A DNA stretch of 36,177 nt from Polyangium sp. 15x6 (GTDB lineage: Bacteria; Myxococcota_A; Polyangia; Polyangiales; Polyangiaceae), in contig NZ_JASBQE010000115.1 in NCBI RefSeq assembly GCF_029960785.1, positions 1 through 36,177 on the forward strand, read 5' to 3'. The notes beneath the pieces are model-generated. The model did not search any database, had not been told where the DNA came from, and saw nothing but the letters and a program-made list of their open reading frames with translations. A program made the position numbers and the translations under genes. Shown piece by piece: positions 4,479 to 10,444 of the stretch. Position 1 is the stretch's first letter, and each line of letters starts with the position of its first letter.

Positions 4479-4894
4479 ATTCGTTTCTCCTACGCCAGGT
4501 CGCGAGGGGTGTGCTCCCGGTGGCCGTCCTCTTCGCCATCTACTTGCTCCTCCGTGGCCACGATGCGCCGGGCGGTGGGTTCGTCGCGGGGCTCGTCACC
4601 TCGGCCGCCGTGGTGCTCCACGCGCTCGCGAACGTCGCCCCGTCCGAGCGGGCGCGGAGGCCACGCGTCCTCGGCTCCGTCTGGCTCGGGCTCCTCGTCG
4701 CCGCGGGGACCGGTCTCGTCGCCGTCGCCGCCGGCGGCCCGTTCCTCACGCATTCTCATTTCGATGTCGGGTCCGGCCCGGCCACGATCCACCTGTCCAC
4801 GACGCTCCTCTTCGACGTCGGCGTGTTTCTGGTGGTGGTCGGCTCGACGATCACGACGCTCGCCGCGTTCGCCGGAGGGGAAAACCCGCGATGA
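4475..4894 (+). CDS. mrpB: Mrp Na+/H+ antiporter subunit B
   Basis: This 139-residue membrane protein matches MrpB (MnhB domain): four predicted helices and the motif LLRGHDAPGGGFVAGL, typical of the family, followed by a PFLT...G loop. It begins with ATG at 4475 inside the mrpA stop (ATGA overlap) and its own stop overlaps mrpC the same way, so translation of the series is coupled. Family length is about 140 residues, so it is complete. Confidence 0.95.
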   Translation: MNSFLLRQVARGVLPVAVLFAIYLLLRGHDAPGGGFVAGLVTSAAVVLHALANVAPSERARRPRVLGSVWLGLLVAAGTGLVAVAAGGPFLTHSHFDVGSGPATIHLSTTLLFDVGVFLVVVGSTITTLAAFAGGENPR

Positions 4895-5235
4895 TCGGCC
4901 TCGCTGCGGCCCTTTCCGGCGTCCTCTTCGCGTGCGGGCTCTACCTGCTCCTCTCCCGCAATTTGCAACGCATGGCGATCGGCTTCTTGCTTCTGTCGAA
5001 CGGCATCAATCTGTTCGTCCTCACGTCCGCGGGGCTGCCCGCGCGCGCGGCGCCGCCGCTCCTCGTCGAGGGCGAGGGGGCGAGCCGGGGCCCGTTCGCC
5101 GATCCCCTGGCGCAGGCCTTCATCCTCACGGCCATCGTGATCGGCCTCGGGATGGCCGCGTTCCTTTTGGCCCTTTCGACGCGGCACCACGACGCCTCGG
5201 GGCGCGATGACGTCGAGGGGGACGACGAGACATGA
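4891..5235 (+). CDS. mrpC: Mrp Na+/H+ antiporter subunit C (NuoK-like)
   Basis: The 114-residue protein has three helices as in NuoK/MrpC: GLYLLLSRNLQRMAIGFLLLSNGINLF is the diagnostic second block (helix 1-2) and DPLAQAFILTAIVIGLGMAAFLL the third helix. The C-terminal tail is short and acidic. It overlaps both neighbours by 4 bases. MrpC is the small subunit bound between MrpA and MrpD in the complex. Confidence 0.95.
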   Translation: MIGLAAALSGVLFACGLYLLLSRNLQRMAIGFLLLSNGINLFVLTSAGLPARAAPPLLVEGEGASRGPFADPLAQAFILTAIVIGLGMAAFLLALSTRHHDASGRDDVEGDDET

Positions 5236-7524: not shown

Positions 7525-7876
7525 GGCCGTCGCCGTCGTTTTGGGTGTCTGCTTCATGTTCCTGGCCTCGTTGGGGGTGCTTCGCTTGGGCGACTTTTAT
7601 GCTCGCATTCACGCCCCCACCAAGGCCGCTACGCTGGGGCTCGTGTTCCTTCTCGCCGCGCTCGCCTTCGAGGTGCAAGACAAGGCTGCCGTGACGAAGG
7701 CGGTGCTCGCGATGTTGTTCGTCGGGATGACGGCCCCGGTGGGAGCGCACATCCTCGCGCGGTCCGCCTACCGGCGTGGGGTGCGTCCGTCCGCCCGTGT
7801 AGACGAGTACGCGCATTTCGTGGCTGTGAGGAAGACCCGGGCCGTCCATCGAGGGGAGCGTGGCGCGCAGCCTTGA
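7514..7876 (+). CDS. mrpG: Mrp Na+/H+ antiporter subunit G
   Basis: The 120-residue protein matches MrpG (PhaG/MnhG): three helices with LGVLRLGDFYARIHAPTKAATLG and FVGMTAPVGAHILARSAYR, both diagnostic. It overlaps mrpF by 11 bases and ends the seven-gene series. The last ~25 residues are a hydrophilic tail. A 169-base leader separates it from nhaA. Confidence 0.94.
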   Translation: MLIEAVAVVLGVCFMFLASLGVLRLGDFYARIHAPTKAATLGLVFLLAALAFEVQDKAAVTKAVLAMLFVGMTAPVGAHILARSAYRRGVRPSARVDEYAHFVAVRKTRAVHRGERGAQP

Positions 7877-7967
7877 AGCATCTCTCCCGTTTCGGACGAC
7901 CCTCGCGCCCACTCGACGGGCAGGCGAAAGCGTGCGATGGTCGAAGCGCGTTCATTGCAAGGAAGGG

Positions 7968-7986
7968 TGCAGCGACGGTCGCTGCA
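7968..7986. promoter_or_regulatory. 19-bp palindrome in the nhaA leader
   Basis: TGCAGCGAC-G-GTCGCTGCA is a perfect inverted repeat with a single-base centre, 59 bases before the nhaA start. As DNA it could be an operator. As RNA the 1-base loop would open to a shorter stem, giving the first helix of a structured leader. It lies just upstream of the two alternative helices at 7994-8042. Confidence 0.6.
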
Positions 7987-7993
7987 GGACCAA

Positions 7994-8042
7994 GGATGGT
8001 CGGGCCGCCATCCCAGCCGGCGAATCTGCCGGCGAGGGATGG
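7994..8042 (+). promoter_or_regulatory. Candidate cation riboswitch: SD-hiding hairpin with competing helix, nhaA leader
   Basis: CCATCCC (8008-8014) pairs with GGGATGG (8036-8042), and inside it GCCGGC (8016-8021) pairs with GCCGGC (8028-8033) around a six-base loop, gaatct. This hairpin ends 3 bases before the ATG at 8046 and contains the purine-rich ribosome binding site (gagggatgg). The same CCATCC can instead pair with GGATGG at 7994-7999 (six pairs, eight-base loop), which would free the binding site. Two mutually exclusive helices with one occluding the ribosome site is the layout of a translational riboswitch. Known nhaA-linked candidates are the nhaA-I and nhaA-II (Li+-responsive) motifs; I could not run a covariance model, so class assignment is inference. 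Confidence 0.65.
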
Positions 8043-8045
8043 AGC

Positions 8046-9467
8046 ATGTCGACTGTACACACACCGGGGCAGGGCCCCCTTCCTTCGTCGCCTCCCGAAG
8101 CCTGGGAGCCGCTCTTGCGGCTCACGCGGCTCGCGAGTCGTCCGCTCGAGCGTTTCCTCCAGATCGAGGCCGCGAGCGGCATCTTGCTCCTCGTCGCCGC
8201 GGCCGTCGCGCTCGTCTGGGCCAACTCTCCCTGGGCGGAGAGCTACGCGTTGCTCTGGCACACGCCGCTCGGGATCCGCGTCGGCACGTTTACCTTCGAG
8301 CGCACGCTCGAGTGGTTCGTCAACGACGGCCTGATGGTGATCTTCTTCTTCGTCGTGGGGATGGAGATCCGACGCGAGATCCACCACGGCGAGCTCTCCG
8401 AGTGGCGGCGCGCGGCGCTCCCCGCCGCGGCTGCGCTGGGCGGGATGCTCGCTCCGGCGGCGCTCTACCTCGGCTTCGCCGGAGCCCCCGCGACCCGGTC
8501 GGGGTGGGGCGTCCCCATGGCGACCGACATCGCCTTCGCCGTCGGTGTCCTCACGCTGCTCGGCAAACGCGTCCCGGCCGCGCTGCGTGTGCTCCTGCTC
8601 GCGCTCGCCGTCATCGACGACCTCGGGGCCATCGTCGTCATCGCGCTCTTCTACTCGAAGGGCATCTCGGTCTCGGGGTTCGTGATCGCCGCGGCAGGGT
8701 TTGGCGGCGTGTTCGCGATGCAGCGCTTTGGCGTGCGCGCGAAGCTGGCCTATGTCGTGCCGGCCATCGTCGCATGGGCCGGCATTTACGCGGCGGGGGT
8801 TCATCCGACGATCGCCGGTGTGATCGTCGGGCTCGTGACGCCGGTGCGCGCGTGGCTCGGGCCGGACGGGTTCATCGTCGGCGTTCGCAACCAGCTCGAG
8901 CACCTCGCGAGGTCCACGCCGCACGAGCTCTCGTCGCACGAGCTCGCGGGGACCTTGCGCCACGTGGACCTCGCGCGCCGTGAAGCGACGTCGCCCGCCG
9001 AGAGCCTGATCACCACGCTCCATCCGTGGGTGGCCTTCGGCATCATGCCCCTGTTCGCGCTCGCCAACGCGGGGGTCACCGTGTCGGGTGGGTCGCTCGA
9101 TCCCGCCTCGTGGCGTGTCCTCATCGCCGTCGCCGTGGGCCTCGTCGTCGGCAAGCCGGTCGGCGTGCTCCTCGCTTGCTGGATCACGCTGCGCCTGCGG
9201 ATCGCGACGCTCCCCGTGGGCCTCGGCGTGCGGCACCTCGTGGTGCTCGGCGTCGTCGCCGGCGTGGGATTCACGATGGCCTTGTTCGTCGCGCAGCTCG
9301 CCTTTGTGGACCCGTCGCTCCTCGCCGCGGCGAAGCTCGGCATCCTTTCGGCGAGCGGCGGCGCGGCGATCCTCGGCCTCGGCCTCGGCCGGTCCCTCCT
9401 CACGCCGGTGGGGACGGCAGGCGCCGCGCAGACGGCCGACGAGGCGGAGAGCTCGACGGAGGTCTGA
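8046..9467 (+). CDS. nhaA: Na+/H+ antiporter NhaA
   Basis: The 473-residue protein is an NhaA-type electrogenic Na+(Li+)/H+ antiporter of the inner membrane. The ion-binding residues are visible: Asp161 in MATDIAFAVG, and the Asp191-Asp192 pair in LAVIDDLGAIVVIA, equivalent to E. coli D133, D163 and D164. A Lys in VVGKPVGVLL fits K300. PTIAGVIVGL and GVGFTMALFVA are also family blocks. It is about 80 residues longer than the E. coli protein, with an extra hydrophilic N-terminus (about 45 residues) and a C-terminal tail. The ATG at 8046 is chosen because the ribosome site and leader structure sit directly before it. Its stop overlaps the next gene. Confidence 0.96.
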   Translation: MSTVHTPGQGPLPSSPPEAWEPLLRLTRLASRPLERFLQIEAASGILLLVAAAVALVWANSPWAESYALLWHTPLGIRVGTFTFERTLEWFVNDGLMVIFFFVVGMEIRREIHHGELSEWRRAALPAAAALGGMLAPAALYLGFAGAPATRSGWGVPMATDIAFAVGVLTLLGKRVPAALRVLLLALAVIDDLGAIVVIALFYSKGISVSGFVIAAAGFGGVFAMQRFGVRAKLAYVVPAIVAWAGIYAAGVHPTIAGVIVGLVTPVRAWLGPDGFIVGVRNQLEHLARSTPHELSSHELAGTLRHVDLARREATSPAESLITTLHPWVAFGIMPLFALANAGVTVSGGSLDPASWRVLIAVAVGLVVGKPVGVLLACWITLRLRIATLPVGLGVRHLVVLGVVAGVGFTMALFVAQLAFVDPSLLAAAKLGILSASGGAAILGLGLGRSLLTPVGTAGAAQTADEAESSTEV

Positions 9468-10444
9468 TGACGAGCCCGTGGATTCAGCTCGTCGGGGGCG
9501 GCGTACTCCTGTACTTCGGCGCGGAGTGGTTCGTCGGCGGCGCGTCGGCTCTGGCCCTCGCCTTGCGGGTGCCGCAGATCCTCGTCGGCCTCACGGTCGT
9601 CGCTTACGGCACGTCGGCGCCCGAGGTCATCGTGGGCGTGCAGGCGGCGATCGACGGGCACGGCGAGGTGGCGCTCGGGAACGTCATCGGCTCGAACATC
9701 GTGAACATCGGTCTGATCCTCGGCGTCGCCGTGCTCATCCGGCCGGCGCGGGTGGACGGCGCGCTTCGCCAGCGTGAGCTGCCGATGTTCGTCGCGAGCG
9801 CGCTGCTCGTCCCGCTGCTCATGCTCGACGGCGCCGTGCGCCGCTGGGAAGCGGCTGCGCTGCTCCTCGTGGCGGCCGGCTACACGGGATGGATGATCCG
9901 CGCCGCGCGCTCCGCTTCGGTGGTCGCCGAGGCCCGGGAAGACGCGACCGTCGCCGGGCGGGCCGCGGACGAGGCCGGAGCCCCGAAGCGCGGGGGAGCT
10001 TTGCGCGCCGTGGCGACGGCCGGCGTCGGCCTGGTGGTCCTGCTCCTCGGGGGCGACATCTTCGTCGACGGCGCGGTCTTGGTCGCGCGCGCGCTCGGAA
10101 TGAGCGATCGGCTCGTCGGACTCACCATCGTCGCGGTGGGGACGTCGCTGCCGGAGCTCGTGACGGGGGTGATCGCCGCTCGACGCGCGCACGCCGACAT
10201 CGCCATCGGCAATGTCGTGGGCTCCAACATCTTCAACACGTTCCTCTGCCTGGGCGCGGCGGCGCTGGCGGGCCCGGTGCATGCGCCGCTAGGGACGCTC
10301 GGGCTGGATCTCGCAGGTCTGCTCGTGATGACGGGCCTCGGGGCGATGTTCATCCGGAGCGAGCGGACCGTCTCGCGCCTGGAGGGCGCGCTCGCGGTCG
10401 GCCTCTACGTGGCATTCACGGTCATTACCGTGGTGCGAGGCTGA
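9467..10444 (+). CDS. Calcium/cation:proton antiporter (CaCA family, YrbG-like)
   Basis: The 325-residue protein has the internal duplication of the CaCA superfamily. The first alpha repeat has GLTVVAYGTSAPEVIVG and ALGNVIGSNIVNIGLILG; the second has GLTIVAVGTSLPELVTG and AIGNVVGSNIFNTFLCLG. The GTS-PE and GSN residues form the cation site. A hydrophilic loop rich in Ala and Glu (about 150-175) separates the halves. The ATG at 9467 overlaps the nhaA TGA by one base, so the two are surely co-translated. Substrate (Ca2+ or Na+/K+ with H+) cannot be told from sequence; context suggests a part in the same cation-homeostasis unit. Confidence 0.92.
   Translation: MTSPWIQLVGGGVLLYFGAEWFVGGASALALALRVPQILVGLTVVAYGTSAPEVIVGVQAAIDGHGEVALGNVIGSNIVNIGLILGVAVLIRPARVDGALRQRELPMFVASALLVPLLMLDGAVRRWEAAALLLVAAGYTGWMIRAARSASVVAEAREDATVAGRAADEAGAPKRGGALRAVATAGVGLVVLLLGGDIFVDGAVLVARALGMSDRLVGLTIVAVGTSLPELVTGVIAARRAHADIAIGNVVGSNIFNTFLCLGAAALAGPVHAPLGTLGLDLAGLLVMTGLGAMFIRSERTVSRLEGALAVGLYVAFTVITVVRG

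Follow-up and report, generated by a model that had tools for sequence, protein, structure and literature searches.

An nhaA-I (Li+-I) riboswitch aptamer ahead of nhaA in Polyangium sp. 15x6, and a rival stem that may hide the ribosome site

Introduction

The nhaA-I RNAs form a described class of riboswitches, Li+-I, whose tested members respond to Li+ and activate expression, nhaA included (White et al. 2022, PMC9646797). In the parts of that study drawn on here, the authors "speculate" that most members act at the ribosome site, terminator platforms being rare within the class, and they mention trehalose-6-phosphate synthase. The same parts describe Na+-sensing variants (Na+-II) that carry terminator stems, stand before genes of unknown function and, in a D. 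propionicus construct, have C in place of U at position 54, the specificity base. The nhaA-II (Li+-II) and Na+-I (DUF1646) RNAs likewise precede genes for monovalent-cation transport.

We analysed a window of 36,177 nucleotides from Polyangium sp. 15x6 (contig NZ_JASBQE010000115.1), in which the leader of an nhaA gene had been predicted to be a cation-responsive riboswitch with two mutually exclusive folds. The locus itself is an unremarkable representative of a class already known, and its leader is very probably an nhaA-I/Li+-I riboswitch that turns translation on. Because the published study, in the parts drawn on here, only speculated on ribosome-site control, the comparative support presented below is a modest addition; what the comparison offers is a concrete model that can be probed by mutation, in a genus of which several species have been sequenced.

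The nhaA leader contains an nhaA-I aptamer

When the whole window was compared with Rfam 15, the sole match at gathering level was the nhaA-I RNA (RF03057; 54.7 bits against a gathering score of 37, E 2.8e-8, model positions 1-55 of 55), and the prediction of a cation riboswitch ahead of nhaA is borne out by this covariance model, well over its gathering score. Of the three Rfam models named with that prediction, nhaA-I was recovered; nhaA-II (Li+-II) and Na+-I (DUF1646) were absent among the seven Rfam matches to 7800-8100 at E up to 10. Five further weak matches in this interval were rejected, as they lie far below their own gathering scores. The leader comprises the following elements.

7965..8013, + strand: nhaA-I RNA (Li+-I riboswitch aptamer), from Rfam RF03057
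7968..7986, + strand: stem P1 (the "palindrome"), 8 bp, loop CGG, from pair counts over 22 alignment rows
7994..8013, + strand: stem P2, arms 7994-8000/8007-8013, loop CGGGCC 8001-8006, from the loop and covarying pairs in 104 leaders
8008..8042, + strand: rival stem, 8008-8014 with 8036-8042 around a hairpin 8016-8021/8028-8033, from folding and comparative tests
8034..8039, + strand: likely Shine-Dalgarno GAGGGA, 6 nt 5' of the ATG, by reading the sequence

As the class requires, the aptamer has a conserved P2 with the loop CGGGCC and a P1 with GGGUGC...GCAGG, and it sits just before a cation antiporter gene (nhaA), as is typical. In the full-length model match, the conserved P1, P2 and loop and the place before nhaA it is like the class; it differs from the consensus in a shorter P1 loop and in having A rather than U after CAGG. 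Judged by its sequence, the leader RNA is a member of the already described Li+-I riboswitch class, and Li+ would be its ligand by analogy with that class.

All coordinates of the original prediction proved correct on rechecking (7968-7986, 7994-7999, 8008-8014 and 8036-8042). The inverted repeat, found where it had been placed at 7968-7986, is TGCAGCGACGGTCGCTGCA (9 + 1 + 9). GGATGG occupies 7994-7999 and CCATCCC 8008-8014, and GGGATGG at 8036-8042 is the exact reverse complement of the latter; GCCGGC occurs twice, at 8016-8021 and 8028-8033. The nhaA ATG stands at 8046, and the rival helix stops 3 bases short of it.

Distribution among relatives

The genome of Polyangium sp. 15x6 (13.38 Mb, 275 contigs) holds two nhaA-I matches over the cut-off, that of the window and one on contig 80, which precedes an nhaA paralogue and has the same rival stem. 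Counting this genome, there are matches at E 0.01 in 39 of 144 relatives, and 35 of 144 exceed the cut-off; in the class, 76 of 317 genomes match at E 1e-4 and 73 of 317 exceed the cut-off. From these we took 104 aptamers with downstream DNA, three of them (L057, L107 and L108) below the family cut-off, and left out a match in G143 and ten sub-threshold matches in the Polyangium sp. 15x6 genome. The loop CGGGCC and its closing U-G pair are identical in all 104 leaders, and P2 pairs 1-4 occur as various standard pairs, with changes on both sides. A frame similar to the window's NhaA, itself 95% identical to the NhaA of P. fumosum DSM 14668, follows 56 of the 104 aptamers (phmmer, E 1e-5).

Chance inverted repeats are common in GC-rich DNA, such as this intergenic stretch, and an exact target for the 7-mer arose in 131 of 20,000 mononucleotide shuffles of 8015-8060, which is notable but alone not decisive. 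An origin of the whole arrangement by chance would, however, have to accommodate the E-value of the Rfam match, an identical loop with a covarying P2 across the leaders and the recurrent NhaA relative downstream, and we regard its probability as negligible.

When loci of the relatives were searched by pattern, a short core pattern was found upstream in 32 of the 56 loci examined (out of 80). In the seven Pseudomonadota relatives with this pattern (L157, L161, L166, L167, L170, L173 and L186), a GGAG- or GAGAG-like stretch lies almost directly after P2, and a different arrangement is suggested for them.

Two loci deserve a separate remark. The NhaA of L120 (BNCN01000001.1, titled Comamonas sp. 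KCTC 72670) is 77% identical to the Polyangium protein and its leader is Myxococcus-like; the Comamonas label of this record looks wrong. At L040 (G005:C1:4161194), the NhaA-like reading frame is not in phase with the expected ATG and reaches 114.7 bits only, possibly through a frameshift or an assembly error.

Gene context and candidate promoter

The genes around the leader, with a candidate promoter, are as follows.

4834-5232: upstream Mrp-type gene, PF00420
5232-6749: upstream Mrp-type gene, PF00361
6749-7243: upstream Mrp-type gene, PF01899
7913..7941, + strand: promoter-like block TCGACG - 17 nt - GATGGT, candidate nhaA promoter, from conservation judged by eye
8046..9467, + strand: nhaA, Na+(Li+)/H+ antiporter, PF06965 453.4 bits, TIGR00773 390.9 bits (cut-off 254)
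9467..10444, + strand: CaCA-family calcium/sodium antiporter, PF01699 209.8 bits, TIGR00367 220.8 bits (cut-off 179.65)

The upstream gene that ends at 7876 is presumably an Mrp subunit as well. A scan of 7700-8100 for the sigma-70 consensus returned no promoter. By eye, the first part of the promoter-like block (CTCGAC) recurs in nine of ten Polyangium leaders, L041 being the exception, and in seven of nine leaders of other relatives; the leader of the nhaA paralogue, which has a different upstream gene, is among those that share it. The block would suit a promoter private to nhaA, with transcription beginning 5' of the aptamer, near 7948. Downstream, the nhaA stop TGA (9465-9467) and the CaCA ATG (9467) overlap by one base. 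The same overlap is found in P. fumosum, and in Polyangium sp. y55x31 the ATG after nhaA begins two bases past the stop.

Deltaproteobacteria is the older home of the myxobacteria. It is also the group from which the Na+-II variants were reported (White et al. 2022, PMC9646797), and the aptamer could on this account be a Na+-responsive offshoot, with a switch that answers Na+ and not Li+; the products of the adjacent Mrp-type and CaCA genes transport Na+ as well, and the A after CAGG departs from the Rfam consensus U. In the parts of the study drawn on here, however, these related aptamers have a terminator platform, other genes of unknown function and C at the specificity base, whereas here the gene is nhaA and no terminator-like site was found in 7700-8100. 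The base at issue (C54, usually U) most likely corresponds to the U before CGGG, which the window shares with 104 of 104 leaders. We consider a Na+ switch unlikely and favour one that answers Li+.

Fold competition in the leader

The stretch 7965-8060 folds better than all 200 of 200 shuffles (z -4.37). Within it, P1 with the rival stem and the inner hairpin comes to -39.9 kcal/mol, against -36.0 for P1, P2 and the inner hairpin, and when P1 and P2 are enforced, the best fold reaches -39.3 kcal/mol. In these models the rival fold is favoured over P2 unless P2 is enforced. Left unconstrained, 7965-8060 has a best fold of -52.6 in which P1, too, is broken and pairs with the beginning of the coding sequence; we build no conclusion on it.

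The original prediction had a second fold that buries the ribosome site, and the rival stem does cover the likely Shine-Dalgarno. Positions 8036-8041 are fully paired in the free ensemble and paired at 0.45-0.83 with P1 and P2 enforced. When the segment from P2 to the ATG is folded alone, the accessibility of the ten bases 5' of the ATG rises from 0.24 in the free state to 0.94 with P2 enforced. When the linker was dinucleotide-shuffled 1000 times, 106 of the shuffles paired the P2 3' strand with bases downstream to the same extent, and none shows a gain in ribosome-site accessibility of the same size on enforcing P2.

Comparative analysis of the rival stem

Over 74 representatives of the 104 leaders, the helix score of the P2 3' strand with its own leader's downstream segment is 12.38, against 11.00 +/- 0.32 for strands permuted among leaders (p = 5e-5), and the observed score is reached by 0 of 300 linker shuffles. 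This score does not reward the invariant GCC; it was picked after a null result with base-pair probabilities, and so the test was not fixed in advance. The null result came from a swap test (p = 0.26) that used 36 representatives drawn from 54 NhaA leaders, the 56 without L021 and L061; for L039, L040 and L047 the start was assigned manually. Under shift-tolerant clustering, with six scorings for each set, 65 representatives give p 0.0002-0.046; stricter clustering weakens the preference for the own strand, to p 0.004-0.085 with 24 representatives and p 0.12-0.53 with 11.

A second line of evidence, more selected than the test over all 104 leaders, comes from an alignment (A1) of 22 rows chosen by eye for a visible downstream hairpin, with L164 omitted as its start is unclear. 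Twenty of the 22 leaders prefer the rival pairing (L119 prefers P2 and L147 keeps it), and 20 of 22 open the ribosome site once P2 is enforced (the exceptions are L139 and L147); because the rows were selected by eye, these are not unbiased rates. The mean opening is 0.33 in 15 non-redundant rows, compared with 0.07 +/- 0.04 for shuffled linkers (100 rounds, maximum 0.19). Sequestors are re-paired in L113 (TCGGC/GCCGA) and L120 (CCGGT/ACCGG), as are rival pairs in L130 (ATCCC/GGGAT).

A test for covariation in homologous leaders had been proposed as a check. P2 covaries across the 104 leaders, and on A1 the cells of P1 and P2 are paired at 96.4%, with 0 of 500 shuffles as high. For the rival stem the outcome on A1 is modest, with 72.8% of cells paired against 71.0 in shuffles (7 of 500 as high) and a covariation score equalled by 18 of 500, an outcome owed in part to MAFFT, which places the hairpins in differing registers; several outer pairs are broken in 10-14 of the 22 rows. 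Among the aligned Polyangium leaders, the complete 7-bp rival helix is seen in the window alone. The GGGATGG side reads GGGATGA, GGGATGT, GGGATCG, GGGACGG or GGGAGCG in the others, so that only the inner 4 to 6 rival pairs persist in the genus. The two exclusive folds have comparative support from the helix-score test and the opening of the ribosome site; one metric is null and the outer pairs are lost within the genus. Taken over these sequences, the comparison with related bacteria suggests that the switch works by hiding and exposing the ribosome site.

In eight of the 56 NhaA leaders, the distance from the aptamer to the assigned start is 11-17 nt, which leaves little room for a sequestering hairpin, and the sequestering platform is therefore not universal. 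Such short leaders, together with the rare class members that have terminator platforms (White et al. 2022, PMC9646797), would suit a real riboswitch whose main effect falls on transcription or mRNA stability, through termination or Rho access, and not on ribosome access. We searched 7700-8100 and found no terminator-like site, and intrinsic-terminator control was rejected on this ground; moreover, the rival stem covers the likely Shine-Dalgarno and ends 3 bases before the ATG. An effect mainly on transcription or stability seems quite improbable to us. The lack of a terminator-like site in that interval fits the ribosome-site control presumed in the parts of White et al. (PMC9646797) drawn on here. 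A downstream hairpin that mimics P2, described here by comparison, was not encountered in those parts.

For a switch acting on translation, we propose that at low Li+ the P2 3' strand (8008-8014) would pair with 8036-8042 around the GCCGGC hairpin and hide the nhaA ribosome site. Binding of Li+ would stabilise P1 and P2 with its CGGGCC loop, and P2 formation would take the 5' arm from the sequestering stem and open the site. NhaA would then be made and expel Li+. This ON direction is what we infer for the window, and the one-base overlap probably couples translation of the CaCA antiporter to that of nhaA.

Wider associations of nhaA-I aptamers

The genes downstream of the other aptamers were named by Pfam or NCBIfam where these were run, and otherwise by eye. 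An nhaA-I RNA in G099 has a CaCA gene (PF01699) as its first long downstream frame, and in G114 a frame similar to it by eye follows an nhaA-I RNA, so that CaCA is a plausible regulon member. We put at even chances a broader proposal, that the nhaA-I switches of myxobacteria have a common platform, with a ribosome-site strand that imitates the P2 5' strand and co-evolves with it, and that the same switch heads a regulon for Li+ (or Na+) stress wider than nhaA in the class, taking in CaCA, Mrp-type, CPA1 and NhaD-like transporters, fusions for trehalose synthesis and a family of small membrane proteins whose tested members match neither Pfam nor NCBIfam. If these associations hold, they would indicate that additional proteins serve in the response to Li+ or Na+ stress.

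Other loci with nhaA-I leaders

Small membrane-like proteins of one family (108-148 aa), with a motif like RxxDxxxxxGxTxxGEPAT, follow 13 of the 104 nhaA-I leaders. They are encoded at L097:687-1013 (+), L059:1589-1921 (+) and L010:1132-1473 (-), and after the leaders L103, L104, L106, L079, L110 (two), L049, L058, L046 and L034. No Pfam match was found for the two members tested and no NCBIfam match for the four tested.

Long frames like trehalose-phosphatase/synthase fusions follow nhaA-I leaders at L082, L080, L084, L085, L086, L094, L098 and L105, a call made with Pfam for L082 and by eye for the rest. Leaders resembling nhaA-I also stand before glycosyltransferases at L052:273-1523 (-) and L113:4820-5600 (+), for which the best NCBIfam model is that of a rifamycin-inactivating glycosyltransferase, far below its cut-off. 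The L113 glycosyltransferase leader lies about 400 nt past an nhaA gene that has its own aptamer. Finally, paired nhaA-I matches occur on one contig within about 0.1-2.5 kb of each other, some divergent and some in the same direction, at L084 (G208:C113), L088 (G206:C63), L110 (G050:C71), L104 (G248:C2) and L043/L015 (G099:C1).
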